Below are positions 3,985 to 62,752 of a stretch of 64,000 nt of DNA, piece by piece (position 1 is the stretch's first letter; every line of letters starts with the position of its first letter). Below the pieces are notes generated by a model. It was not told the origin of the DNA, ran no database searches, and saw nothing but the letters and a program-made list of their open reading frames with translations. This DNA comes from Halarchaeum rubridurum (GTDB taxonomy: Archaea; Halobacteriota; Halobacteria; Halobacteriales; Halobacteriaceae): NCBI RefSeq assembly GCF_014647115.1, contig NZ_BMOO01000004.1:62001-126000 (forward strand), in the 5' to 3' direction. The translations under genes were made by a program, and so were the position numbers.

Positions 3985-4905
3985 TCACGGGTCGTAGCGC
4001 GACATCGCGCGGTCCATCCGCGAGGAGACGCCGTTGGGGTTCCGGGTCGGGGTGCGGTCGCGGCGTCGCGCCCGGAGGCCGTCCTCGACGCCGGCGGCGG
4101 CGTTCGCCACGACGGCGCGCCCGCGGGAGAGCCACGAGGAGGGCGTCTCGTCGCCGCCGAGCACGTTGCGCGCCGCGGTGCCGGCCTCGCGGAGCGCGTG
4201 CGTGACAGCGCGCCACGCGACGGGGGGGCTGAGGCCGTAGTTCTTGGCGAGGCGATAGCCGAGGGCGCGGTACTTCAGGCCGGTCGCGGACCCGTCGGGG
4301 GTCTCGGCGACGCGGTCGGGCACGTCGTCGCCCTCGGCGCGCAACACGGCGAAGGCGGGCTTCCACGCGACGCGGAGGTCGAGGCCGGCGAGGCGGTGGG
4401 CGGCGTCGCGGGCCGCACCCGTCTCCAGGTACTCGTCGAAGCCGTCGAGGGCGTCCGCGGCCGCGCGGGTGAACGCGACGTTGCCGCCGTCGAAGTAGCG
4501 GACGTCGCGGCCGGCGACGGTCTCTCGCTCGCACTCCTCGGTTGTGACGCCGCCGGAGACGGCGCGGTGGACGGGACCGGTGACGACGTCCGCGCCCGTC
4601 TCGATTGCCGCCGCGAGCGCGTCGTACCACTCCTCGCGGACGACCGAGCGGTGGTCGACGAAGGCGACGACGTCGCCGCTCGCGGCCGCGAGCCCGGCGT
4701 TCCGGGAGGCGTTGATGTTCCGCTCGGGGAGTTCGAGGAGGACGTCGACGGCGGGGTGGTCGCGGACGAGCCCCGAGGTCCCGTCGCTTGAGGGACCGTT
4801 GACGACGACGACCTCGACGTCGGGGAGGCGCGTATCGAGGGCGTCGAGGACGCGCGCGAGGCGGCGGCGCGCGTTCAGGGTGGGGACGACCACCGACAAC
4901 TCCAT
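3985..4905 (-). CDS. family 2 glycosyltransferase
   Basis: This 306-residue protein begins MELSVVVPTLNARRRLARVL, the nucleotide-sugar-binding beta strand of GT-A family 2 enzymes. GPSSDGTSGLVRD follows near residue 38, NINASRNAGLAAASGD near 63-78, and FVDHRSV (82-88) stands where the DxD metal motif normally lies. It probably transfers a sugar from a nucleotide donor to a lipid or glycan at the cytoplasmic face of the membrane; the acceptor is unknown. The hydrophilic C-terminus shows no obvious membrane helices. It lies 45 bases downstream of a methyltransferase gene in the same orientation and may be co-transcribed with it. Confidence 0.8.
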   Translation of the reverse strand: MELSVVVPTLNARRRLARVLDALDTRLPDVEVVVVNGPSSDGTSGLVRDHPAVDVLLELPERNINASRNAGLAAASGDVVAFVDHRSVVREEWYDALAAAIETGADVVTGPVHRAVSGGVTTEECERETVAGRDVRYFDGGNVAFTRAAADALDGFDEYLETGAARDAAHRLAGLDLRVAWKPAFAVLRAEGDDVPDRVAETPDGSATGLKYRALGYRLAKNYGLSPPVAWRAVTHALREAGTAARNVLGGDETPSSWLSRGRAVVANAAAGVEDGLRARRRDRTPTRNPNGVSSRMDRAMSRYDP

Positions 4906-14552: not shown

Positions 14553-15644
14553 TCAACGTACCGCGTCGAGGTCCGCCGCGGCGGCCTCGCGCACCTCCGC
14601 GGTCGAGAGCGGCGCGTCGTCCCACGCGGGGAGGCGGGTGTCGGGGCCGGGCGCGCGCACCGCGGCGCGGTACGTCTCGACCTGCTCGCGCTCGGCGGCG
14701 GCGTCGTGCTCGAAGCCGTTGAACGTCGCGTCGGCCGCGTAGCCGCGCTCGAAGCGCTCCGCGGCCGCGACGTAGCGCTCGGGCAGGGTGTCGTAGTCGG
14801 GGTCGACGCCCGCCTCCTCGACGACGCGGAGGAGCGCGTCGCCGACGCCCTCGCTCATGTCGCCGAGCCCCGTGGGCCCCGAGACGGCGCGGTGGTCGTG
14901 CTCGTAGAAGCCGAGGTCGACCTGCGCGACGCCGTCGGGGCCGGTCGTCCGATAGGCCTCGCCGAGCGTCCCGACTTCGAGCCCCCAGCGCCGCTGGACG
15001 CGCAGCGAGCGCGCGACGTCGCCCGTCATCGCGCACTCGCCGGCGAGCGCGTAGCGGAACGCGCCGAGGTAGTCGAGGACCTCGTGGTCGTGGGCGTCGG
15101 CGAGCGCCGCGACCAGGGGCTCGTAGAAGAGCCGGAAGAGCCGCCCGTAGAGCCGGCCGGACTCCACGCGGGCGTAGTACCCCTTCGTGAAGTCGAAGTC
15201 GCCGGCGAGCGGCGCGAGGAGCTTCGGGACGTCGCGTTCGTCGTAGCTCTCCGCGTCCGCGTCGTGGAGGGCGACGTAGTCGGCGTCGGCGGCGAGCCCG
15301 AGCGCCAGCCAGACGTCCCGGCCCTTCCCCGCCGCGCCGTCGAGGCCGGCGGCGTCGAGCAGGTCGGCGAGGCGCGGCCCCGAACACCAGAGCACTTCCA
15401 GGGGGAGGTCGAAGCCGTCGAGCCACTCGCAGAAGGCCGGGACGCGCTCTGCGGGCGCGCGCAGCGGCACGAGCACGCGCTCGGGGTCGAGCGACGCGAG
15501 CGTCGAGAGGACGCCCTCCGCGGCCAGTCCCGCGTACTCCCGCTCGGTCATCGGGACGACGACCGTCGCGCGGCCCACCGGGGCGTCGGGGTCCGCCCCG
15601 CCGTAGTCGTGGAGCGTCGCCACCCGCTCCTGCGTGTAGTCCAT
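14553..15644 (-). CDS. glycosyltransferase, glucosyl-3-phosphoglycerate synthase-like
   Basis: This 363-residue protein has the GT-A core: ATVVVPMTEREYAGLAAEGV near residue 25, then YVALHDADAESYDERDV near 145, giving a DAD metal motif. GRLFRLFYEPLVAAL and GLEVGTLGEAYR follow, as in GT2/GT81 enzymes that make glucosyl- or mannosyl-glycerate precursors. It may produce a phosphorylated compatible solute or glycolipid head group; the exact substrates are an inference. The C-terminus ends RPROX-free and acidic without membrane helices. It heads a short minus-strand pair with the DUF7109-like gene. Confidence 0.7.
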   Translation of the reverse strand: MDYTQERVATLHDYGGADPDAPVGRATVVVPMTEREYAGLAAEGVLSTLASLDPERVLVPLRAPAERVPAFCEWLDGFDLPLEVLWCSGPRLADLLDAAGLDGAAGKGRDVWLALGLAADADYVALHDADAESYDERDVPKLLAPLAGDFDFTKGYYARVESGRLYGRLFRLFYEPLVAALADAHDHEVLDYLGAFRYALAGECAMTGDVARSLRVQRRWGLEVGTLGEAYRTTGPDGVAQVDLGFYEHDHRAVSGPTGLGDMSEGVGDALLRVVEEAGVDPDYDTLPERYVAAAERFERGYAADATFNGFEHDAAAEREQVETYRAAVRAPGPDTRLPAWDDAPLSTAEVREAAAADLDAVR

Positions 15645-17043: not shown

Positions 17044-19722
17044 TCACTCGTCGCGCACCGTCCATCCCGCCGAGGTCTCGGTCATCCGGCCGACGTCGCC
17101 GACGCCGCGCGGGCCCGGCGGGACGACCGCGACGACGCCCGTCCGATACCCGAAGTCGATGCGCCGGTTCCGCCCGAGGCGCTCCGCGCGGCCGTCGCCG
17201 TCCACGTCGAGCGTCACGGGGGCGTTCGCGCGGACGTAGCGCAGCGAGCCGTCGGCGACGCCCGGCCGGCCGAGCGGCACGGCGACCGCGAAGCGCGCGT
17301 AGCCCCCGCGGGCCGCGACGTGCCACGCGTTCGCGGTGACGTACCACTGGCCGGGGAGGGGCAGGAGCGGCAGGCCCGAGGGGAGGAGCGCGAGCGTCGA
17401 ACGCGCCAGCGCGCGCTCGGCGGCCGTCCCGACCGCGTCCGACGCGGTCCCCACGACACGCTCCCGGACCGGGTCGACGGCCGACCCGCCGACGACGAGG
17501 GCGGTCCCGGACTGCCGGTCGCGGACGGCGTGGCCGAGTCGCGCGGCGAGGAATCCCGGCCTCGCGGCACCCCGGGCGGCCGCCTCGTCGGCGAGCGCCG
17601 CGGGGAGCGAGCCGTTGGCGACCGCGAGCGCGCGCGTCCCGGGCGTCGACCAGCGCGCGAACGCGGCGTCGAGGGCGCGCTCCCGGGCCGCCGAGGGAAG
17701 CGTCGTGTGTCGCCGGAGCGTCGCCGCCATCGTCTCGCGCGCCGTGGCGCTCGCCCCGACGACCGCGTGTTCGAGCGCCGCGCGTTCGACTCCGGCCCGC
17801 TCGGCCGCGGACAGGGTTTGGGCGGCCACGGCGTACGAGACCGGTTCGGCGTGGCCCGTCCGTAGGAAGGCGAACACCCGCTCGACGATGTCCGCCGACG
17901 GCACCGTGAACAGGTTGTCGTTGCGGGCGGCGAGCGGGTAAGCGGGGTCCGCGACCGGCGCGTCCGCGGGCGTCACGCGGGCGAGCGAGAGGTACGCGGG
18001 GTCGGCGGAGACGGTCATCGGGACGGGTGGGGCGTCCGGACCGGCGAGGGCCGGCGGCGTGACGGCCACGCCGCTCCCGGTCAGTCGCTCGCGGAGCGCG
18101 GTCTGCGCCGTCGCCAGCGTCGAGCGCCGCGCGGCGACCGTCTCCCGCACCCGGTCGGCGTAGGCGGCACGGGCGAGCGCACCGGCGCGTTCGTCGACGG
18201 TCGGCGACGCCGGCATCCCCGCGACGGTCGCGTCGACGGCGGGCGGGAGGTCGGCGAGCGGGTCGCCGTCGAGGAACACACGGCGCTCCGCGTGCGTGGT
18301 GACGTTCCGGAGCGCCGCGTGCGTCCGCCCGAGGGCGTCGAGGACCGCGCGGCGGCGCGACGCGGGCACGTCGGGGTGGACGACGAATCGGGTGTCGAGC
18401 GTCCCGGCGACGGCGCGGCGCGCGAGCGAGCGGCCGAGCGCGTCGTCGATGGCGCGCCGGACCGCACGCTCGCGGACCCACGACGGGCCGTCGCTCACGT
18501 CGGGCAGGCCGCGTCCGGTCACGGGGCGCGCGCCGACGACGACGGCGACCCGGTAGCTCTCGTTGCCGACGGTGACCGAGCGCGAGGACGAGTCGACGCG
18601 CGTGTACCCCCGCGAAACGGCGGGCGTCGGCGGGCGGCCGTCGCTCGACACGCGGACGCCGAGACGGACGGCGACGGCGTACGCGCGCCGTATCGTCCCG
18701 TCGAGCGAGTCGTGACCGTCGCCGTCGCTGAAGGCGACGAGCGCGTCGTCCGCGGCGGGTTCGAGGGGCACCGGCTGGGGGTTCGCGGTCCCGGGGTCGA
18801 CCCGCGAGAGCGCCTCGTTGGCGAGGGCCGCGCCGGTCCCGTTCCGTCCGTCGGCGGTCGCCCGCGCGCCGGCGAGCAGGTCCTTCGCCGCGACCGTGAC
18901 GGCCGCGCGACGCGTCGCGCTGACGCCGAGCGGGTCCGCGCTCCCGAAGGTCGCGCGTTCGAGCGAGAGGACGCCGCGGTTCGTGGCGAGCGCGACGTGG
19001 CGGTTCGCCACGACGTTGGTGATCGGCGCGCCGCCGTACTGCGCGAGCCCCCGCGCCTCCGCGAGCGCGGTGAGCGAGACGGTGGCGCGACGCGCGAGGC
19101 CGGGACCGTCGGCGACGCCGCGGTCGAGGCGCGTTTCGAACACGCCGACGCGCTCGTGGACGGCGAGGACCGGCGTCGGCGCGGTGACGGTGATGGAGCG
19201 CTCGCGCGACTCGACGACGGCGCGTGCGCGGGTGGCGACGACGCGGACGCCGTCGATGCGGACGCGGAGCGCGGTGTCGCTCTCGACGCCGGTGAGCGTC
19301 ACGCGGTCGATAGCAGCGTCGGCGTCCGCGGGCGAGTCGATTTCGGGGAGCGATGCCGTCGCGGTGACGCCGTCGAGCGTGACGGCGCTCGCGGGAAGCG
19401 CGTCCGCGACCGCGAGGTAGACGCGGAGGCGGAGGGCGTCCCGGAAGGGGTCGGAGGCGTTCAGGACGCGGCCGTAGGGCGTGTCGGCGCGTTCGAGCAC
19501 CGGGTGCCGAGCAGCGTCGACGCTCGCGCGCAGCACGGCGCGCTCGGTCGCGGCGTGGGTCGCCGTCCACGACGCGTCGAGGGCGGGCCCGGCGTCGTAC
19601 CCCGACGGCGCGGGCCGGCCGGCGATGCCGGCACCGAGCGCCGCGCTGGTGAGCAGGAGAAGCGCACCGATGACGGCGAACGGGACGCGACCGCGCTGGT
19701 CCGGGAAGGGGTCGAGCTTCAC
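17044..19722 (-). CDS. large exported protein of pilus-like operon (DUF7286-like)
   Basis: The GTG start overlaps the previous stop as GTGA and gives 892 residues. After DPFPDQRGRVPFAVIGALLL a single hydrophobic helix anchors the protein; the QRGRVPF...helix layout resembles a type IV prepilin-like leader. The rest is a long beta-rich, Arg/Ala-rich extracellular region with no known domain. Near the end a GQWYVTANAWHVAARGGYAR-like segment and DVDGDGRAERLGRNRRIDFG suggest a folded C-terminal module. Position as last gene of the secretion operon points to a surface pseudopilin or tip protein. Confidence 0.7.
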   Translation of the reverse strand: MKLDPFPDQRGRVPFAVIGALLLLTSAALGAGIAGRPAPSGYDAGPALDASWTATHAATERAVLRASVDAARHPVLERADTPYGRVLNASDPFRDALRLRVYLAVADALPASAVTLDGVTATASLPEIDSPADADAAIDRVTLTGVESDTALRVRIDGVRVVATRARAVVESRERSITVTAPTPVLAVHERVGVFETRLDRGVADGPGLARRATVSLTALAEARGLAQYGGAPITNVVANRHVALATNRGVLSLERATFGSADPLGVSATRRAAVTVAAKDLLAGARATADGRNGTGAALANEALSRVDPGTANPQPVPLEPAADDALVAFSDGDGHDSLDGTIRRAYAVAVRLGVRVSSDGRPPTPAVSRGYTRVDSSSRSVTVGNESYRVAVVVGARPVTGRGLPDVSDGPSWVRERAVRRAIDDALGRSLARRAVAGTLDTRFVVHPDVPASRRRAVLDALGRTHAALRNVTTHAERRVFLDGDPLADLPPAVDATVAGMPASPTVDERAGALARAAYADRVRETVAARRSTLATAQTALRERLTGSGVAVTPPALAGPDAPPVPMTVSADPAYLSLARVTPADAPVADPAYPLAARNDNLFTVPSADIVERVFAFLRTGHAEPVSYAVAAQTLSAAERAGVERAALEHAVVGASATARETMAATLRRHTTLPSAARERALDAAFARWSTPGTRALAVANGSLPAALADEAAARGAARPGFLAARLGHAVRDRQSGTALVVGGSAVDPVRERVVGTASDAVGTAAERALARSTLALLPSGLPLLPLPGQWYVTANAWHVAARGGYARFAVAVPLGRPGVADGSLRYVRANAPVTLDVDGDGRAERLGRNRRIDFGYRTGVVAVVPPGPRGVGDVGRMTETSAGWTVRDE

Positions 19723-20216
19723 CGCGACCACGTCCGGAGGGTGAGGTGGACGGGCGCGTCGCCGCACGCGGGTCGCTCGCCGGTCGGCACCACGAACGTC
19801 ACGGCGTCGACGGCGACGCCGGGCGGTGGCGTCGCCCCGGCGGTGAGCGTCGTCGCGCGACACGGGCCGTCGGGCCGCCACGACGCCGTGAGCGACGCGC
19901 GACCGGAGGCGTTGGCGAGGCGGCGGGCGGCGGCGCGTTCGACCGCCGCGACGTAGCCGGGCGGGGCAGTGTCGCCGCCGCGCGCGACGGCGGCGTCGGC
20001 GAACAGCGCGGCGACCGAGCCACGAACCGGAGCGCCATCGACGGGCACGGTGGCGGTGCTGTCGAGCGCGGCGCGCGCCGTCGCGGCGGGCGCGGTGTCG
20101 GCCGCCGGCGTCGGCGGCGCGATTCCGGCGAGCGTGACGACGGCCCCACCGACCAGGAGGACGCAGACGGCGACGTCGAGGACGGTACTGAGCCCGCGCG
20201 AGCGCGTCACGGCCAC
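19719..20216 (-). CDS. pilin-like membrane-anchored protein (DUF7284-like)
   Basis: This 165-residue protein has a single N-terminal hydrophobic helix after TRSRGLSTVLDVAV, and a small exported domain with two cysteines (GPCRATT and PACGDAP) that could form a disulfide. The short basic leader plus helix fits a type IV pilin-like substrate, although no cleavage site can be proved. It overlaps both neighbours: its start overlaps the end of the preceding gene by about ten bases and its stop overlaps the next start as GTGA. Confidence 0.65.
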   Translation of the reverse strand: MAVTRSRGLSTVLDVAVCVLLVGGAVVTLAGIAPPTPAADTAPAATARAALDSTATVPVDGAPVRGSVAALFADAAVARGGDTAPPGYVAAVERAAARRLANASGRASLTASWRPDGPCRATTLTAGATPPPGVAVDAVTFVVPTGERPACGDAPVHLTLRTWSR

Positions 20217-20596
20217 ACCGCCACGGTGAGTCGCCCCGGTCTGACGCGGTCGGGGCCGACGCGGACCGGGAGGGGTGCAGCGGCGACGTCGGCGCGGCGC
20301 GGGCGGGGCGGCCCGACGGTCCAGACGCGCGTCGGCGTGCGGAGCGTCGCGTTCAGCGAACCGGTGTGCGAGAGCGTACGGACCGCGGGGCGGAGCGTCG
20401 CGGGGTCGGCCGGCCCCGGGCCGAGGTCGGCGACGAGGGCGGCGAGCGCGTCGTCATCGGCCGTCGTCGGCGTCGCGTGGCCGGTCGGGACGGCCGCGTA
20501 GGCGGACGCGTAGACGCCGAGCGCGATAGTGAGCGCGAGGACGGCGGCGAGCGCGGCGGTCGGTTCGACCTGCGCCCTACCCGAGGAGCGTGACAT
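20207..20596 (-). CDS. pilin-like membrane-anchored protein (DUF7285-like)
   Basis: This 129-residue protein begins MSRSSGRAQVEPTAALAAVL and continues into one hydrophobic helix; a Glu follows the RAQ motif at the place where pilins carry the conserved +5-type acidic residue. The outer domain is short and basic-Pro rich. ATG at 20596 is used; a GTG two codons earlier is possible. It overlaps the genes on both sides, so expression is almost surely coupled. Confidence 0.65.
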   Translation of the reverse strand: MSRSSGRAQVEPTAALAAVLALTIALGVYASAYAAVPTGHATPTTADDDALAALVADLGPGPADPATLRPAVRTLSHTGSLNATLRTPTRVWTVGPPRPRRADVAAAPLPVRVGPDRVRPGRLTVAVWP

Positions 20597-21044
20597 CGCC
20601 ACCCCCGAGACGAACGCGGCGAGCGGTCAGCGAGTCGGCGCACGGCCGCCAGCCGGCCTCGGTGCCCGAGGCACGGGCGCGGCGGACGTCGGCGCGGAAG
20701 TCCCCGAGCGTGGGGTAGACGACGCTCGGCGACGCTCCCCGGAGGACGCGGCGGAGCGCGGGGGTGTCGGCGGGCGTGATCGGGCGCGCGAACGTCGCGT
20801 GCGTGGTGCCGGCGTCGTTGCGGAGCGCGACGCTCGCGGAGCGGACGCGGACGGTCGTCGCGGTCGTCGGGACGGTGCGCGCGGCGGCGTGGTCGCCGGC
20901 CGTGACGGCGTCGGCGGCGTTGGCGACGGCGGTCGCGTCCGGCGTCGGTGTGCTCGGGACGGCGGCGACGGCCGCGAGCGCGGTTCCGGCGACGAGCGTG
21001 AGGGCGACCCACGTCGGGAGCGCGTCGCCCTGCGTGTCGAACAT
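20577..21044 (-). CDS. pilin-like membrane-anchored protein (DUF7283-like)
   Basis: This 155-residue protein starts MFDTQGDALPTWVALTLVAG and has one hydrophobic helix (about 11-30), then a small outer domain with LRRVLRGASPSVVYPTLGDF. No catalytic motif is seen. It lies 36 bases after the TadC-like gene and overlaps the next gene by about 20 bases. With the two following genes it forms a set of three small one-helix proteins, as expected for minor pilins or assembly factors. Confidence 0.65.
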   Translation of the reverse strand: MFDTQGDALPTWVALTLVAGTALAAVAAVPSTPTPDATAVANAADAVTAGDHAAARTVPTTATTVRVRSASVALRNDAGTTHATFARPITPADTPALRRVLRGASPSVVYPTLGDFRADVRRARASGTEAGWRPCADSLTARRVRLGGGDVTLLG

Positions 21045-21080
21045 GGACCCGGGTGAGCCGCCATCGCGTAAGAACTCGCG

Positions 21081-22766
21081 CTAGAGCAGGAGCGCGGTGA
21101 CGGCGGCGGCGCAGGCGTAGCACGCGCCGGCGCTGGCGAGCGCGACGCCGACGCGGTGGCAGAGCGGCGCGGGCCGGAATCCGCGGTCGAGGCAGACGGC
21201 GAGCGCGGTGAGGACGACGGCGGACCACGCGACGTAGCCGCCGACGACGAGGCCGAGCGTCGGGACGACGAGCGTGCTCCCGGTGCCGTCGAAGGAGCCG
21301 ACGTGGCCGGCGAGCGTGACGGTCGCGCCGGCGATGACGGGCGCGAACAGTCCGGCGGTTCGGACGAGGGTGTCGACGAGGTCCGCGAGGTCGGCGCGCG
21401 CCTCGGTTTCGAGGCGGTGGACGGCGTCGAGGCCGCCCGCGACTTCGGTGAGAACGCGTCCGCCGGCCGCGCCGCCGGTCGCGGCGTCGAGGACGAGGCG
21501 GACGGTCCCGGCGGTGCGCGGGCCGTGCTCGGGGCCGAGGACGCCGCGACGGCCGAAGAAGGCGGCGTCGAGCGGCCGGCCGAGCGCGCGGCGGGTGCGG
21601 TCGGCGGCGGCGAACAGCTCGCCCGCCGGCCCGTCGAGGGTGCGGCCGACGGCGGCGACGGCAGTCTCGGGCGGGTCGCCGGCCGCGAGGCGTCGGCCGA
21701 CGACGGCCGTGGCGTCGGGGAGCCCGTCGGCGACGCCCGCGGCGCGCTCGTCGAGGGCGAGGACGGGCCGGGTGGCGACGGCGAGCGCCGTGCCGAGCGC
21801 GCAGCACGGGGCGGTGACGGGGAGCGCCCAGGCGACGCCGAGGACGAGACAGCCGACGGCGGCGAAGGTGCCGGCGCCGAGTCCGGCGAGCGCGGCCCGG
21901 CGGCGGTCGAGGACGCGGTCGGCGTCCGCGCGACCGGCGGGGAAGACGGCGGGGCGGTTTGCGAGCGCCCACGCGGCGACGCCGAGGAGCGCGAGGGGGA
22001 GGACGACGTCGTAACAGACGGCGACGAGGCCGAGCGGGAGCGCGACGCCGGCGGCGGGCGCGACGGGGACGAGGCCGACGAGCGCGAGCGGGAGGATAAC
22101 GCCGAAGGCGTAGACGGCGTTGACGGGGCCGCGAACGGCGCGGGCGCCCTCGCGGACGTGGCGGTCGGTGGCGTCGCGGGCGGCGGCGAGCGCGCGGTCG
22201 AGGACGCGGCCGCGGTCCGCAGTCGGGGTCTCGACGGCGGCGCGGACGAGCGCGACGGCGCGGCGGAGGCCGGGCGTCGGGAGCGACGGCGCGACGGCGT
22301 CGAGCGGTGTTTCGGGCGTGCCGGCACTCGCGCGGACGGCGTCGGCGAGCGCGTCCGAGAGCGGGTCGTCGCCGGCGTCGGCGGCGAACGCGGCTGCGCC
22401 CTCGGCGGAGGGTTCGATTCGAGCGCGGAGGGCGAGGCGGGCGACGAACCCCGGGCCCGCGCCGACGAGCCGGCTCTCGTGGAGGGCGAGAACGAGCGAC
22501 GGCACGTACCGGACGGCGCACGCGCCGGCGAGGGCGTAGGCGACGACGGCGAGCGCCGCGAGGGGTGCGACGGCGACGGCGAGGAGCGCGAGGGCGGCGA
22601 GGACGACGAACAGCGCGGTGACGCGCGTGACGTCGGCGGGTGTCGCGCGCCAGCCGAGCGCGCCGAGCGTGCCGCCGAGGTCGTCGGGAGCCGGGAGCGG
22701 GACGTCGGGGAGTCGCGCGGCGATGCGGACGAGGGCGTCGTCGAGCGCCGCGGCGGGGCGGCTCAC
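21081..22766 (-). CDS. type II secretion/pilus membrane protein, TadC/PilC-like
   Basis: This 561-residue protein is an inner-membrane platform protein of the type II secretion F family. It contains clusters of hydrophobic helices (for example around residues 50-90, 235-290 and the C-terminal 100 residues) separated by cytoplasmic helical domains. GVADGLPDATAVVGRRLAAG followed by PPETAVAAVGRTLDGP marks an F-domain repeat. Such proteins interact with the GspE-type ATPase to drive filament assembly. Its start overlaps the ATPase stop by four bases, as is usual for partner genes. Confidence 0.8.
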   Translation of the reverse strand: MSRPAAALDDALVRIAARLPDVPLPAPDDLGGTLGALGWRATPADVTRVTALFVVLAALALLAVAVAPLAALAVVAYALAGACAVRYVPSLVLALHESRLVGAGPGFVARLALRARIEPSAEGAAAFAADAGDDPLSDALADAVRASAGTPETPLDAVAPSLPTPGLRRAVALVRAAVETPTADRGRVLDRALAAARDATDRHVREGARAVRGPVNAVYAFGVILPLALVGLVPVAPAAGVALPLGLVAVCYDVVLPLALLGVAAWALANRPAVFPAGRADADRVLDRRRAALAGLGAGTFAAVGCLVLGVAWALPVTAPCCALGTALAVATRPVLALDERAAGVADGLPDATAVVGRRLAAGDPPETAVAAVGRTLDGPAGELFAAADRTRRALGRPLDAAFFGRRGVLGPEHGPRTAGTVRLVLDAATGGAAGGRVLTEVAGGLDAVHRLETEARADLADLVDTLVRTAGLFAPVIAGATVTLAGHVGSFDGTGSTLVVPTLGLVVGGYVAWSAVVLTALAVCLDRGFRPAPLCHRVGVALASAGACYACAAAVTALLL

Positions 22767-24556
22767 GGGCGCGTCGCCGCCTCGGCCGCGAGCTCGCGCT
22801 CCCGCGCGTCGAGCGCGTCGGACACGGCGGTGGGCGCTTCGCCCGGTCGGGCGAGCGACGCGAGGAGGGCCGACTCGGCCAGTCGCGGGGTCGCCCGGAG
22901 GCGCGTGCCGTCGAGGGCGTAGAGCGCGTGGAACGCCCCGTCGTGGTACTCCTCGATGCGCGTGACGCGGTGTTCGCCGTCGACGCGCCCGGCGCTGACG
23001 ACGAAGTCGGTGGCGTCGAAGGCGGAGGGCGCGACGCCGAGGTCGGAGACGACGCGCTCGCGGACCGCGGCCCCGTCCTCGCCGTGGATGGTGCCGAGGA
23101 CGGCGCTGACGTGCGCGCCGATGCGCATCGCCTCGTAGAGCGTGCCGGCCTCGGTGCCCCGGACTTCGCCGACGACGAGCGCGCCCTCACCGAGGCGGAG
23201 CGCGGTGCGCAGCGCGGCGTCGGGCGAGAGCCCGTCGCCGTCGAGGTCGGTGCGGAGGCCCTGCACGTCGCGGCCGTCGCGCTGGAGCGCCGTCACGGGG
23301 AGCTCGGGGGTGTCCTCGACGACGACGGTGCGGACGTCGCGGGGGAGTTCGGCGAGGAGCGCCGACAGGAGGGTGGTCTTGCCCGCGCCGCGCGCGCCCG
23401 CGACGAGGCCGGCGGCGCCGCGTTCGACCGCGAGCGAGCAGAGCGCGGCCGCGTCGGGCGGAAGCGTCCCGCCGTCGACGAGGCGCGCGAGCGTCCAGAC
23501 GTCGCCGCCGTGCGCGCGGAACGCGAACCCGGGACCGTCGCTCGCGGGGCCGGTGACGCCGGCGACGCGGACGCGGCGGCCCGCGACGTCCTCGGCGACG
23601 GCGTCGAGCGTGGGGTCGGCGCTGGAGAACGCGCGCCCGCTCCCGGCGCGGAAGCGGGAGGCGAGGGCGCTCGCGCCACCCGCGGTGAGGCGGACGTTCG
23701 TCCGGTGGCGCTCGCCGTCGCAACGGACGTAGAGCGGCGTCGAGTCGGCGGGCGCGGGCGCGAAGACGTCGCTGACGCGCTCGTCCGCGAAGAGGTCGTC
23801 GAGGACGCCGTAGCCGCGGGTGTGTTTCCGGAGGACGCGCGCGAGCGGCGCGACGCGGGTCGGGTCGTCGACGACCGCTGCGACGGCGCGGTCGGGACGC
23901 GGGTCGTCGGCGGCGACGAGGCGGTCGACGGCGGCGTCGAGCGCGCGGTAGTCCGCGGCGTCGAGCGCGGCTTCGGCCGGCACGAGGTGGTAGAGCGGGA
24001 GGGCGTCGGGACGCTCGTAGCGGCGGACCGCGGTGTCGGGAGCGACCTCGCGTTCACCGCGGAGCGTCGCGTCGGTGGGCGGGGCGGGGTCGACGTGCGC
24101 GAGCGCGACCGCGGGCCCGCGGTAGGCCGCGAACGCGCGTTCGGGTGCAACGTCGCGGGCGGCCGCGAGGCCGGTCTCGACGGCGAGCGACGCGACGGTG
24201 CCGGCGCGGCCGGCGGCCTCGCGAGCGGCACCGAGCGGGTCGCGTCGGGCGCGCGCGGCGAGTCGGGGGTCGACGGTGGCGACGCGCGCGGCGAACGCCC
24301 CGGCGGCGACGAGGCGCGCGACGGCGTCGGGGCCGTATCGGCGTTCGAGCCCGCACGCGGTGACGCGGACGGCGTCGGTGTCGCGACCGTCGAGCGCGCG
24401 GACGACCGCCTCGCGGCAGGCGGGTTCGGCGGCGAGGTCGCCCCGCCCCGGGCAGTCGTCGGCGGTCACGTCGAGCCGGCCGTCGGCGGCGTCGTGGACG
24501 CAGGCGCACGCGGGGGGCGCGTCGCCACGCGGCGGGAGGAGGTCGGTGAGGGTCAC
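22763..24556 (-). CDS. type II/IV secretion system ATPase (GspE/PilB-like)
   Basis: This 597-residue hexameric-type ATPase would power pilus or secretion-filament assembly at the cytoplasmic membrane. It has Walker A GARGAGKTTLLSAL near residue 387, an Asp box VVVEDTPELP, Walker B ALVVGEVRGTEAG near residue 457 and a His box HVSAVLGTIHGEDG. The N-terminus carries CACVHD...DDCPGRG...ACREAVV, four cysteines that may bind zinc, followed by an unusual acidic domain. It is coupled by four-base overlaps to both neighbours. Confidence 0.9.
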   Translation of the reverse strand: MTLTDLLPPRGDAPPACACVHDAADGRLDVTADDCPGRGDLAAEPACREAVVRALDGRDTDAVRVTACGLERRYGPDAVARLVAAGAFAARVATVDPRLAARARRDPLGAAREAAGRAGTVASLAVETGLAAARDVAPERAFAAYRGPAVALAHVDPAPPTDATLRGEREVAPDTAVRRYERPDALPLYHLVPAEAALDAADYRALDAAVDRLVAADDPRPDRAVAAVVDDPTRVAPLARVLRKHTRGYGVLDDLFADERVSDVFAPAPADSTPLYVRCDGERHRTNVRLTAGGASALASRFRAGSGRAFSSADPTLDAVAEDVAGRRVRVAGVTGPASDGPGFAFRAHGGDVWTLARLVDGGTLPPDAAALCSLAVERGAAGLVAGARGAGKTTLLSALLAELPRDVRTVVVEDTPELPVTALQRDGRDVQGLRTDLDGDGLSPDAALRTALRLGEGALVVGEVRGTEAGTLYEAMRIGAHVSAVLGTIHGEDGAAVRERVVSDLGVAPSAFDATDFVVSAGRVDGEHRVTRIEEYHDGAFHALYALDGTRLRATPRLAESALLASLARPGEAPTAVSDALDARERELAAEAATRP

Positions 24557-25077
24557 GCCGCGCCGTCGTGCCGCGCTCGGGTATAAACCGTCGCCCCCGC
24601 GGCCGGCGCGACGACGACGGTCGGCGTCCGGTCGACGAGCACGTAGCGGAGCGTGAGCGTCGCCCCGTGGGTGATTCGGAGGCCCGTCGCGTCGTCGCGC
24701 AGGGTGCCGTCCGCAGCCCGAACGCGGAGGTCGACGGGGAGGAGAGTCGTCCGGAGTTCGCCGCCGACGCGGACCGCGGCGACGTCGGTCGTGGGGGCGT
24801 CGGGCGTGTCGGGCGCGCTCCCGACGAGGAGCGCGGCGGGAGCGGTCGCGGCGTCGGCTCGCGGGAGCGTGAGCGCGACGGTCCGCTCGGCCGCCGGCGC
24901 GCCGGGCGGGGCGGGCGTGCTCGCGGCGAGGGCGACGACCGCGTCCCGGACGTCCACGGCGGCGACGTGGCCGGCGCTCGCGGCGTTCGCCTCCCGGGCG
25001 TCCTCGACGACGGGCGCGGCGGCCGCGGTCAGCGCGCCCGCGAGTGCGACCGCGAGGAGGACGCGGAGGACGGTCAC
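24553..25077 (-). CDS. single-helix exported protein of pilus operon (DUF7311-like)
   Basis: The GTG start overlaps the preceding stop as GTGA, giving 174 residues. The N-terminus VTVLRVLLAVALAGALTAAA is a hydrophobic signal or anchor; the rest is a beta-rich outer domain (VGGELRTTLLPVDLRVRAAD, THGATLTLRYVLVD). The function is not recognised. Position between the coiled-coil protein and the ATPase suggests an assembly component acting outside the membrane. Confidence 0.65.
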   Translation of the reverse strand: MTVLRVLLAVALAGALTAAAAPVVEDAREANAASAGHVAAVDVRDAVVALAASTPAPPGAPAAERTVALTLPRADAATAPAALLVGSAPDTPDAPTTDVAAVRVGGELRTTLLPVDLRVRAADGTLRDDATGLRITHGATLTLRYVLVDRTPTVVVAPAAGATVYTRARHDGAA

Positions 25078-25559
25078 CGGAGGAGGCGACCGAAGAAGCC
25101 GGTAGCGTCGTCTTCGGGTTCCGAGGACGCCGGCTCGGGGAGGTCGGGAAGCGGATGCGTCGGCCGCGGGCGTTCGGCGGCCGCGAGCGCGGCGTTCGCG
25201 CGGCGCTCGACGGACTCGTTCACGGCGTCGACGCTCCCGACGTACCCCTGGAGGGATTGGACGGCGGCGTCGAGGTCGTCGAGACGGCGCTCGACGGTCG
25301 AGAGGCGAGCGGCGAGCGCGCGGTCGGCGTCCGCCGCGGCGCGGGAGTCCGCGGTCGGTGTCGGGTCGCGCTCCGGCGTGTCGTGTGCGGTCCCGTCGGT
25401 CGGGTGGTCGGGGTCGGTCGAGTGCGCCGCGTCGAACGCGCGCTCGACGGCGCGGAGTCTGGCGTCGACGTCGGTGCGCTCGGGCGCGGACGGGGCGTCG
25501 CCGCGGTCGCCGTCGTGCGTGTGCGAGTCGGCCGTCTCGGCGCGGAGGTCGGTGGACAC
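25074..25559 (-). CDS. coiled-coil protein heading the pilus operon (DUF7310-like)
   Basis: This 161-residue acidic protein has a GTG start. The central part, ALAARLSTVERRLDDLDAAV followed by QSLQGYVGSVDAVNESVERR, has heptad character and should form a coiled coil. Both ends are disordered, and the C-terminus ends GFFGRLLR, a short amphipathic segment. No enzyme motif is present. It is the first gene of an eight-gene operon in which each junction is overlapping or very short. It follows the phosphodiesterase gene by 45 bases on the same strand. Confidence 0.65.
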   Translation of the reverse strand: MSTDLRAETADSHTHDGDRGDAPSAPERTDVDARLRAVERAFDAAHSTDPDHPTDGTAHDTPERDPTPTADSRAAADADRALAARLSTVERRLDDLDAAVQSLQGYVGSVDAVNESVERRANAALAAAERPRPTHPLPDLPEPASSEPEDDATGFFGRLLR

Positions 25560-60589: not shown

Positions 60590-62752
60590 ATGGATTTTCC
60601 GGTTCCCCCCATCGTCGCGCCGGACGACCCCGACGCGTGGTACGCCCCCGAGGTCCGCGCGCAGTACGAGGTCCACCCGAACGTCGTCGTCACCGTCCGC
60701 GACATCGGGACGGACTTCACGTACGACGTCCGCGAACCCGTCCTCCCCGCGGCCGACGCCGCGGCGCGCGAGCGGATCGCGGCTCACTTCGCCGACGCGG
60801 GCCTCGAACGACCGCGGACGCGCGAGGGGTGCGTCGAGCGCGTCGCGGCCGGCCTCGACGCGAAACACCGCCGTATCGTGGACGGCCTCGCGCCGCGCGC
60901 GAAGGCGAGCCGCCGTCGGCTGCGCTACTACGCCCTGCGCGACCTGCGGTGTCTCGGCGACCTGACGCCGTACGCGCTCGACGAGCGCATCGAGATCGCG
61001 GACGCGAGCGACGAGCGCCTCGTCGTCCACACGGTCGATTACGCGCCCGCGCTGACGGCTCTGCCGGCGCGGCCGGACCACCTCGGGCGCTTCCTCTCCG
61101 AGCGCGTCGAGACGTACACCGTTCCCTTCGGCGACGTCGACGTGCCGGTCGTCGTCTACCGCGAACACCTCCTCGGCGCGGACCCCTTCGACCTCCAGTA
61201 CGCCGTCCAGGAGCCCCCGTTGCTCCCCGGCGACGCCGAACTGGTCGCGGCGTGCAAGGACCGCATCTGGGAGACGAACGTCGACGAGGTCGTCGCGGAC
61301 CGGACGAGCTTCGTCCGCGAGCACGCCGAGCGCTACCTCTCGCGCGCGCTCGCCGCCGAGCAGACCCGCGCGTGGCGCGACGCCGTCGGCTATCGCGTCC
61401 GGGCGGCGCTCGCGGCCTACGACCTCGCCGTCCCGCCGGTGAGCCGGCGTTTCGAGGACGGCCGCCTCGACGACCTCGTCTACTACGTCCTCCGGGATTT
61501 CGTCGGCGACGGCGAGCTCACGGTGCCGATTCGCGACGACAACCTGGAGGACGTCGAGGCGAATCGCGTCGGCGAGCGCGTGAAGGTCGTCCCTCGGGGT
61601 GGTGACGAGCGCGTCCCGACGAACCTCGTCTTCACGGACGAGGCGCGCTTCGTCAACCTCGTCACCCAGCTCGCGGCGAGCGACGGCGTCGAGTTGAACG
61701 CCGCGCGCCCCTCCGCGAAGGTGAACCTCCGACCGCCCGAGGTGGACGCCGACGTCACGATACGCTGTGCGGTCGCGCTCCCCGTCATCAGCGCCGACGG
61801 CCCGCACGTCTCCATCCGCAAGCAGTCGCCCGACCCGCTCACGCCCGTCGACCTCGTGCGCGCGAACAGCATGCCGACGGAGGCCGTCGCGTACCTCTGG
61901 CTCGCCTACGAACACCACGCCGCGGTCCTGTTCAGCGGCGCGACGGGCGTCGGGAAGACGACGCTCATGAACGCGCACCTCCCGTTCGTCCCGTTCGACG
62001 ACCGACCGGTCAGCATCGACGAGGGCTCCCGAGAGGTCAGACTCCCCCACGAGACCGGCGTCTCGCTCACCACGCGCGACCACGAGAGCGAGTTCAAGCG
62101 CGTCACGATGGCCGACCTGATGACCGAGACGAACTACCTGAACCCCGACGTCGAGGTCATCGCGGAGATAAACAGCCCCGCGAGCTTCGAAACCTTCGGC
62201 GAGGTCCTCAACACCGGCCACGGCGTCATCGGGACGACGCACGCCGAGGACGTGGAGACGCTCGTCAACCGCGTCACCGAGCGCGGCCTCCCGGCGTACC
62301 TCCTGCGCGAGGTCGACCTCGTCGTCTTCCCGCGCCACGTCGACGGCGAGCGCTACGTCGGCGAGCTCGTCGAACTCGTCCGCGACGACGACGCCCCCGC
62401 GGACGGCGAGGTCGTCAACGACGGCGTGGCGGTCAGATACCGCCGGCTCGTCGAGCGCACCCACGACGGCGGCTTCCGAGTGAGCGGCGGCGAGTCGGCG
62501 TTCCTCGCGCGTCTCGCGGCCCGGACGGACCGCCACGTCGACGACGTCCGCGCCGAGTACGAGCGCAAACACCGCTACGTCCGCTACCTCGTCGAGCACG
62601 ACGTGAGCGACGTCGACGCGCTCTTCAGCTTCCTCGCGGACCTGCGCGTCGACGAGGCCGCGACGGTCGAGCGCGTGCGGCGCGGGCGCGACGCCGGCCC
62701 GAACCCGCGGCCCGCGGACGCCGACGACCGCGACGACCGGAGGGTGGCGTGA
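60590..62752 (+). CDS. second type II/IV secretion (pilus) ATPase
   Basis: This 720-residue GspE/PilB-type ATPase has an N-terminal ~390-residue domain (MDFPVPPIVAPDDPDAWYAP then VVVTVRDIGTDFTYD). Walker A is GATGVGKTTLMNA (about 448-460), with DEGSREVRLPHETGVSL as the Asp box. The Walker B segment VEVIAEINSPASFETF has Asn where the first ATPase has Arg. GVIGTTHAEDVETLVNRV is the His box. CTTATATACATAT lies about 25 bases upstream, so the mRNA is near-leaderless. It is coupled to the next gene by a four-base overlap. Confidence 0.9.
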   Translation: MDFPVPPIVAPDDPDAWYAPEVRAQYEVHPNVVVTVRDIGTDFTYDVREPVLPAADAAARERIAAHFADAGLERPRTREGCVERVAAGLDAKHRRIVDGLAPRAKASRRRLRYYALRDLRCLGDLTPYALDERIEIADASDERLVVHTVDYAPALTALPARPDHLGRFLSERVETYTVPFGDVDVPVVVYREHLLGADPFDLQYAVQEPPLLPGDAELVAACKDRIWETNVDEVVADRTSFVREHAERYLSRALAAEQTRAWRDAVGYRVRAALAAYDLAVPPVSRRFEDGRLDDLVYYVLRDFVGDGELTVPIRDDNLEDVEANRVGERVKVVPRGGDERVPTNLVFTDEARFVNLVTQLAASDGVELNAARPSAKVNLRPPEVDADVTIRCAVALPVISADGPHVSIRKQSPDPLTPVDLVRANSMPTEAVAYLWLAYEHHAAVLFSGATGVGKTTLMNAHLPFVPFDDRPVSIDEGSREVRLPHETGVSLTTRDHESEFKRVTMADLMTETNYLNPDVEVIAEINSPASFETFGEVLNTGHGVIGTTHAEDVETLVNRVTERGLPAYLLREVDLVVFPRHVDGERYVGELVELVRDDDAPADGEVVNDGVAVRYRRLVERTHDGGFRVSGGESAFLARLAARTDRHVDDVRAEYERKHRYVRYLVEHDVSDVDALFSFLADLRVDEAATVERVRRGRDAGPNPRPADADDRDDRRVA

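Follow-up and report, generated by a model that had tools for sequence, protein, structure and literature searches.

A haloarchaeal pil-2 type IV pilus operon and a candidate shaft pilin encoded in trans

What kind of surface structure does an archaeal assembly motor build when it is encoded together with several small exported proteins and one very large one, and which protein would then form the shaft? The question is posed by an eight-gene operon in a 64,000-nucleotide stretch of DNA from Halarchaeum rubridurum (contig C4:62001-126000, here called the window), part of a haloarchaeal genome of 2.81 Mb. We identify the operon, with near certainty, as the pilB2/pilC2 (pil-2) locus for a type IV pilus known from haloarchaea; it matches subclade 4F in the published classification. 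The shaft pilin itself is probably encoded outside the operon: our best candidate for the major (shaft) pilin of pil-2 is a stand-alone DUF7382 protein whose gene is present or absent together with the operon in nearly all of the haloarchaeal genomes compared. The kind of locus is already known; what is new is the quantitative link to a specific pilin encoded in trans, together with the separability of the surface module from the motor.

The operon and its published relatives

The operon runs along the minus strand from 25559 to 17044, its eight co-directional genes, all with open reading frames, encoding in order DUF7310, DUF7311, a T2SSE-family ATPase, a platform protein, DUF7283, DUF7285, DUF7284 and DUF7286. 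An earlier note on this DNA had placed an eight-gene operon at 17044-25559 with every junction overlapping or very short, and both statements hold, the internal junctions measuring -4, -4, -4, +36, -26, -10 and -4 bases (six of seven are overlaps, and the largest gap is +36). Its count of eight genes also stands, with the amendment that the first product is a cytoplasmic coiled-coil protein (DUF7310), which it had not named as such. The outer gaps, of 45 base pairs (bp) to the upstream phosphodiesterase gene and 34 bp to the downstream DUF5791 gene, are similar in size to the internal gap of 36 bp, so that the limits of the transcription unit cannot be read from spacing. Among 79 named related loci that we compared, 60 hold all eight genes, and since these lie on one strand and in one identical order in 60 of 60 cases, the operon is far beyond chance. 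The neighbours in these complete loci include the epimerase in 58, DUF5791 in 59 and the phosphodiesterase in 32; DUF7286 itself was found in 224 of 292 haloarchaeal genomes.

We base the identification as pil-2 on the Pfam assignments, the fixed gene order, the relatives and clade of the ATPase together with its Cys-containing N-terminus, the leaders of the exported proteins and a prepilin peptidase, all described below, as well as on the literature. In Halobacterium salinarum, Losensky et al. described pil-2 as pilB2, pilC2 and further genes (OE1347R to OE1332R) which are co-transcribed and include three prepilins predicted by FlaFind; in adherent cells, the pilB2 transcript was 8.5-fold higher, though low in amount (PMC4292770). 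The window shares with that locus the ATPase (arCOG01818) followed by the platform protein (arCOG01810), three small predicted prepilins and the last gene, the gene-by-gene match being drawn from order and size; by gene order, the FlaFind prepilins would be DUF7283, DUF7285 and DUF7284. Unlike in H. salinarum, where pilC2 carries an in-frame stop in strain R1 and pilB2 an insertion in strain NRC-1 (PMC4292770), both genes are open here. Brown and Duggin reported a halobacterial pilB2/C2 regulon that adjoins cetZ2 and has genes for an epimerase, a phosphodiesterase and a glycosyltransferase in its vicinity (PMC9856176). The window has the epimerase and the phosphodiesterase in corresponding places, and the gene at 14553-15644, which has no Pfam match, is by its position probably the glycosyltransferase of that regulon. 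A divergent tubulin-like (CetZ-type, GGGTGSGG) gene adjoins DUF7310 upstream in 47 of 81 loci (for example L087, 1217-2308, minus strand); none lies beside the operon in the 64-kb window, the tubulin-family genes of this genome being elsewhere.

In the passages of their 2016 paper that deal with halobacterial subclade 4F, Makarova, Koonin and Albers describe a Cys-rich ATPase N-terminus (prominent in methanogens), a unique intracellular coiled-coil protein, an S-layer-like protein, an FtsZ-like neighbour and a PilA-family major pilin predicted to be mostly stand-alone and in trans (PMC4858521). Present here are the Cys-containing N-terminus, an ATPase of the methanogen clade, the coiled-coil DUF7310, a large surface-type protein and a stand-alone pilin; membership is judged by these features and by the ATPase tree, set against those published passages. 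DUF7310 would, from its matching description, be the coiled-coil arCOG07564 of this subclade, and the pilin is likened by description to the 4F major pilin (arCOG02981) as it appears there. Subclade names conflict in the literature, PilB2 of Haloferax volcanii having been assigned to 4C in a 2019 paper (PMC6491452) and the H. salinarum work being cited where Makarova et al. discuss 4C (PMC4858521), and our use of 4F rests on features and tree.

The earlier note had also spoken of four unfamiliar exported proteins, and of a machine and surface structure that look uncharacterised. The former description has to be given up, as the families are named in Pfam (PF23954-PF23957, PF23991 and PF23993, that is DUF7283-7286, DUF7310 and DUF7311); the latter is right in that no filament has been shown, but the locus itself has been described (PMC4292770, PMC9856176, PMC4858521). 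Under the DUF names of these proteins we found no literature. There is a further likeness to the bacterial Tad pilus (TadA/CpaF, TadB/C, TadE/F/G), in that CpaF is among the nearest solved relatives of the ATPase and several small exported proteins accompany a large one; we nevertheless rejected membership of the Tad system, the exported proteins matching no Tad family (TadE/TadF/TadG, Flp) in Pfam or NCBIfam.

The motor and a stand-alone pilin

The assembly ATPase PilB2 (22763-24556, minus strand, as for all genes of the operon; PF00437, 1.1e-14) is of the VirB11/TadA type with a short, Cys-containing N-terminal extension. The TadA model scores 7e-34 with it, under that model's cut-off, and its nearest solved relatives are GspE, CpaF and FlaI structures. 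The following gene encodes a platform protein of the PilC2/TadC type (561 residues; 21081-22766) with several membrane segments, assigned from its position after the ATPase and from a family alignment: the window protein has no Pfam match when taken alone, and seven of 20 aligned members match T2SSF (PF00482). DUF7310, the first gene (161 residues; 25074-25559; PF23991, 1.6e-21), is a coiled coil by Pfam and has no membrane segment; it is probably a motor-associated regulator, which may control or dock the motor. A single-copy prepilin peptidase (PF01478) is encoded away from the operon, at C1:525967-526362. At its right edge the window holds another motor pair, in which a second T2SSE-family ATPase (60590-62752, plus strand, running past the window end; L169, 6750-8576) is followed by a T2SSF platform protein; this ATPase scores 316 bits with the profile of the pil-2 ATPase, more than any further ATPase that the genome encodes outside the operon, its placement in the tree not being firm.

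The pil-2 motor has orthologues outside the Halobacteria. The non-Halobacteria genomes with DUF7286-like proteins, for which the label ‘methanogen’ rests on one named control with a DUF7286 match, Methanosarcina acetivorans, encode ATPases with 42-47% identity, as against about 30% for haloarchaeal paralogues, and a maximum-likelihood tree unites the pil-2 and methanogen ATPases in one clade (11 rows, 100/99) set apart from the other haloarchaeal paralogues. Positions C and CR at the N-terminus are common to the window, haloarchaeal and most methanogen orthologues, and the methanogen ATPases with this Cys N-terminus precede a platform protein that scores 1e-85 to 1e-100 with the pil-2 platform profile.

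Three methanogen motor loci (L219, L220 and L221) also hold a protein of about 157 residues with a class III leader, and with a weak immunoglobulin (Ig)-like match in both members scanned. Its relative in the present genome is a stand-alone, single-copy gene at C4:278016-278459, about 190 kb from the operon, whose product carries the leader DDRG/VAGLPVRLVVAFVVG (the slash marking the putative cleavage point), belongs to DUF7382 and gives a weak match to Big_1, an Ig-like domain. We searched the same 292 genomes with a profile built from four haloarchaeal members, counting a pilin at E < 1e-20: pilin and DUF7286 occur together in 219, neither is found in 65, DUF7286 only in 5 and the pilin only in 3, such that 284 of 292 genomes are concordant. 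Across nine mixed genera among genomes G000-G193, 43 of 46 genomes are concordant, a level reached in 0 of 200,000 within-genus shuffles.

The two also decay together. Where only a remnant of the operon is left, the pilin is split over two frames (G294), carries an in-frame stop (G234), lacks the first 20 profile positions (G012) or is absent (G067), and in G299 a fragment of DUF7286 is accompanied by a fragment of the pilin. It is on the adjacency in methanogens, the co-occurrence in 284 of 292 genomes and this shared decay that the probable assignment of the shaft to the stand-alone pilin is founded; the type IV pilus-like machine with small exported proteins proposed in the earlier note keeps its motor and its plausible prepilin sites, while the shaft pilin probably has to be sought outside the operon. 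In the same G012 genome (L185, G012:C1:2148500-2163000), a single frame at 9880-10821 matches the C-terminal part of DUF7286 and, weakly, DUF7310 (E 5e-4), and is apparently what an internal deletion spanning the whole operon has left behind. PilB3/PilC3 of Haloferax volcanii, with PilA1-6 in trans, is likewise a motor operon using pilins encoded elsewhere; pil-2 differs from it in that its ATPase groups apart from other haloarchaeal paralogues, and in that the operon here adds five exported proteins.

Exported proteins and a separable surface module

A single membrane helix stands at the N-terminus of every exported product, which bears out the small single-helix proteins foreseen for this operon, and the leaders that precede these helices are conserved to differing degrees among deduplicated homologues. 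DUF7285 (131 residues; 20207-20602; PF23956, 1.5e-21), a minor pilin candidate, has the best prepilin-like leader, GRA/QVEP, with a basic [KR][GAS] pair at the membrane-helix boundary in 88 of 93 homologues and R[GA]xx[EDS]P in 81 of 93. The leader of DUF7286 (892 residues; 17044-19722; PF23957, 690 bits) is near-invariant in the form R[GA]RVPF, and R[GA][RW][VIL]PF is found in 81 of 88; R[GA]RVPF is shared by homologues at their N-termini and occupies residues 10-15 here, which upholds the length of 892 residues from the GTG start at 19722. For DUF7284 (165 residues; 19719-20216; PF23955, 3e-13), a minor pilin candidate with the leader SRG/LSTV, the pattern R[GA]xS[TA] is kept in 65 of 94. 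The three leaders first quoted from this operon (QRGRVPF, GRAQVEP and SRGLSTV) are real, with the unequal conservation just given. Methanogen locus L173 retains DRG/VTEP (DUF7285), DRA/YSTT and DRA/RVPF, and methanogen locus L175 has HG/YVPF; retention across 80-90 homologues and in methanogens rules out a chance origin, and it is plausible from these sequences that the leaders of DUF7285, DUF7286 and in part DUF7284 are class III prepilin sites, which the peptidase would cleave.

The remaining two exported proteins look different. DUF7283 (155 residues; 20577-21044; PF23954, 8e-36) is a pilin-like exported protein whose single N-terminal helix follows an acidic [DE][GAST] pair; [KRDE][GAST] stands at the helix boundary in 86 of 87 homologues, almost always in acidic form, and this site, an acidic and a small residue, resembles the sites of DAVS type given for PilA1 and PilA3 of Haloferax. 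Its AlphaFold2 model, with a mean predicted local distance difference test (pLDDT) of 91.1, comprises one N-terminal helix and an alpha/beta domain. DUF7311 (174 residues; 24553-25077; PF23993, 5e-23) has its helix at residues 6-24, from the first residues onwards, and shows no basic, prepilin-type leader; its motif rate was excluded, because the scanned stretch extends upstream of its start.

DUF7286 is probably a tip or adhesin-like minor pilin, the tip being its putative place. Its model (pLDDT 78.3 overall) matches no solved structure, nor does its sequence. The window protein contains DVDGDGRAE, which might recall a Ca2+-binding, PilY1-like tip; we rejected this candidate, as the DxDxDGxx[DE] loop occurs in only 65 of 89 intact C-termini and so is not a defining feature of DUF7286. 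DUF7284 is short here (165 residues) and in Halobacterium locus L115 (153 residues), compared with about 260-300 residues in most relatives.

The surface genes (DUF7311-7283-7285-7284-7286) behave as a module that can part from the motor (DUF7310-ATPase-PilC), and some of the module is present in methanogens. In genome G033 the motor genes, DUF7310 included, occupy the usual site (L223), where a DUF7283-like match is still present after PilC, and all five surface genes are found elsewhere (L187). DUF7311 accompanies DUF7285-7284-7286 apart from the motor in L187, L157 and L163, and four loci (L144, L157, L163 and L165) hold surface genes (DUF7285-7284-7286, some with DUF7311 or DUF7283) with no ATPase or platform gene within the fetched stretch. 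From these separations it follows that DUF7311 belongs to the surface set and DUF7310 to the motor. Two f19 genomes (L173 and L174) have DUF7285-7284-7286 with no motor nearby. The pil-2 locus was reported as restricted to haloarchaea on the basis of blastn (PMC4292770); an origin confined to haloarchaea is ruled out by the relatives that both DUF7285-7284-7286 and the motor have in methanogen genomes. Loci L144, L157, L163 and L165 all come from metagenome-assembled genomes, two of them Halovenus, and in L163 and L165 DUF7283 is shifted behind DUF7286. Halobacterium strains at L104 and L115 carry operon genes. Elsewhere in the window, a tRNA-Ala called by ARAGORN at 4644-4737 overlaps a well-scoring reading frame (3985-4893, minus strand) and may be a false positive.

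A model for pil-2 and its alternatives

Drawing these findings together, we think it likely that the product is a pilus with a trans-encoded shaft pilin, to which the operon contributes the motor together with five proteins that serve as minor pilins or as a tip set. PilB2 at the cytoplasmic face, together with the membrane platform PilC2, would extract class III prepilins from the membrane once their leaders had been cut by the genome's single prepilin peptidase, with DUF7310 remaining at the motor. The stand-alone pilin, with its class III leader and Ig-like domain, would polymerise into the shaft of the filament, and DUF7311, DUF7283, DUF7285, DUF7284 and DUF7286 would act together as a module, probably a stoichiometric complex of minor pilins or of the tip, with DUF7286 as its large, surface-exposed end piece; such a pilus may serve in adhesion or contact.

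Several observations weigh against this model. Thin filaments of H. salinarum depended on pilB1, and pilC2 is interrupted there by a stop codon (PMC4292770); no filament from pil-2 is reported in the pil-2 literature. A basic leader is absent from DUF7283 and DUF7311, and the DUF7284 leader is missing from Haloferax/Halorubrum-type sequences; the confident DUF7283 model has no match among solved structures, those of pilins included. DUF7286 occurs without the pilin in five genomes (G220, G239, G251, the same-genus G236, and G067 with its operon remnant), the pilin occurs without DUF7286 in three, and in G264 the pilin is apparently frame-broken (two frames) with DUF7286 at full length.

The silence of the literature on a pil-2 filament would suit a short pseudopilus, in which the motor makes no long filament but only a short piston or display structure (compare the type II secretion pseudopilus and the Sulfolobus bindosome) presenting DUF7286 at the S-layer, and so would an operon without an abundant-looking pilin, in which one large exported protein and several small single-helix proteins keep a fixed order that resembles a pseudopilin tip set. 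We regard this as unlikely, however, given that a conventional Ig-like pilin is found, and decays, together with the operon and that its methanogen relative adjoins the orthologous motor. The same pilin bears on the possibility, implied by the earlier note, that the operon's own DUF7285, DUF7284 or DUF7283 are the shaft pilins and that the trans pilin serves another system. Whilst the prepilin-like leaders of DUF7285, DUF7284 and (in acidic form) DUF7283 speak for it, as do the three FlaFind prepilins of H. salinarum pil-2 (PMC4292770), the small proteins are encoded once each, in fixed order beside the large DUF7286, which is how minor pilins are arranged; for DUF7283 no match to a pilin-like fold was obtained, and the trans pilin tracks the operon across genomes although the same genomes have other type IV pilus motors, all of which makes an own-encoded shaft decidedly improbable. 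That the operon is a decaying relic, carried by descent and non-functional in many species, might be read from its repeated remnants and losses (G012, G234, G294 and G067) and from the pilC2 stop and pilB2 insertion in H. salinarum strains (PMC4292770); with eight open frames here and in 60 named loci, and with motor motifs and leaders conserved over great distances, we give this very little credence.

Returning to the pilus with a trans-encoded shaft, we put forward more tentatively, as something that may or may not prove correct, a fuller version in which the stand-alone DUF7382 pilin forms the shaft, the DUF7311/7283/7285/7284/7286 complex forms a tip with folds unlike those of any solved pilin or tip protein, and this tip module, invented within the archaea before the methanogens split off, passes as a unit from one motor locus to another. 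The pil-2 locus is present in about three quarters of haloarchaeal genomes, yet is without a known product, and a single-copy candidate shaft pilin, together with the division into motor and surface genes, narrows an ‘unknown pilus’ to a few testable genes. If true, this would give six Pfam families of unknown function, along with a tip module that methanogens share, a functional point of reference.

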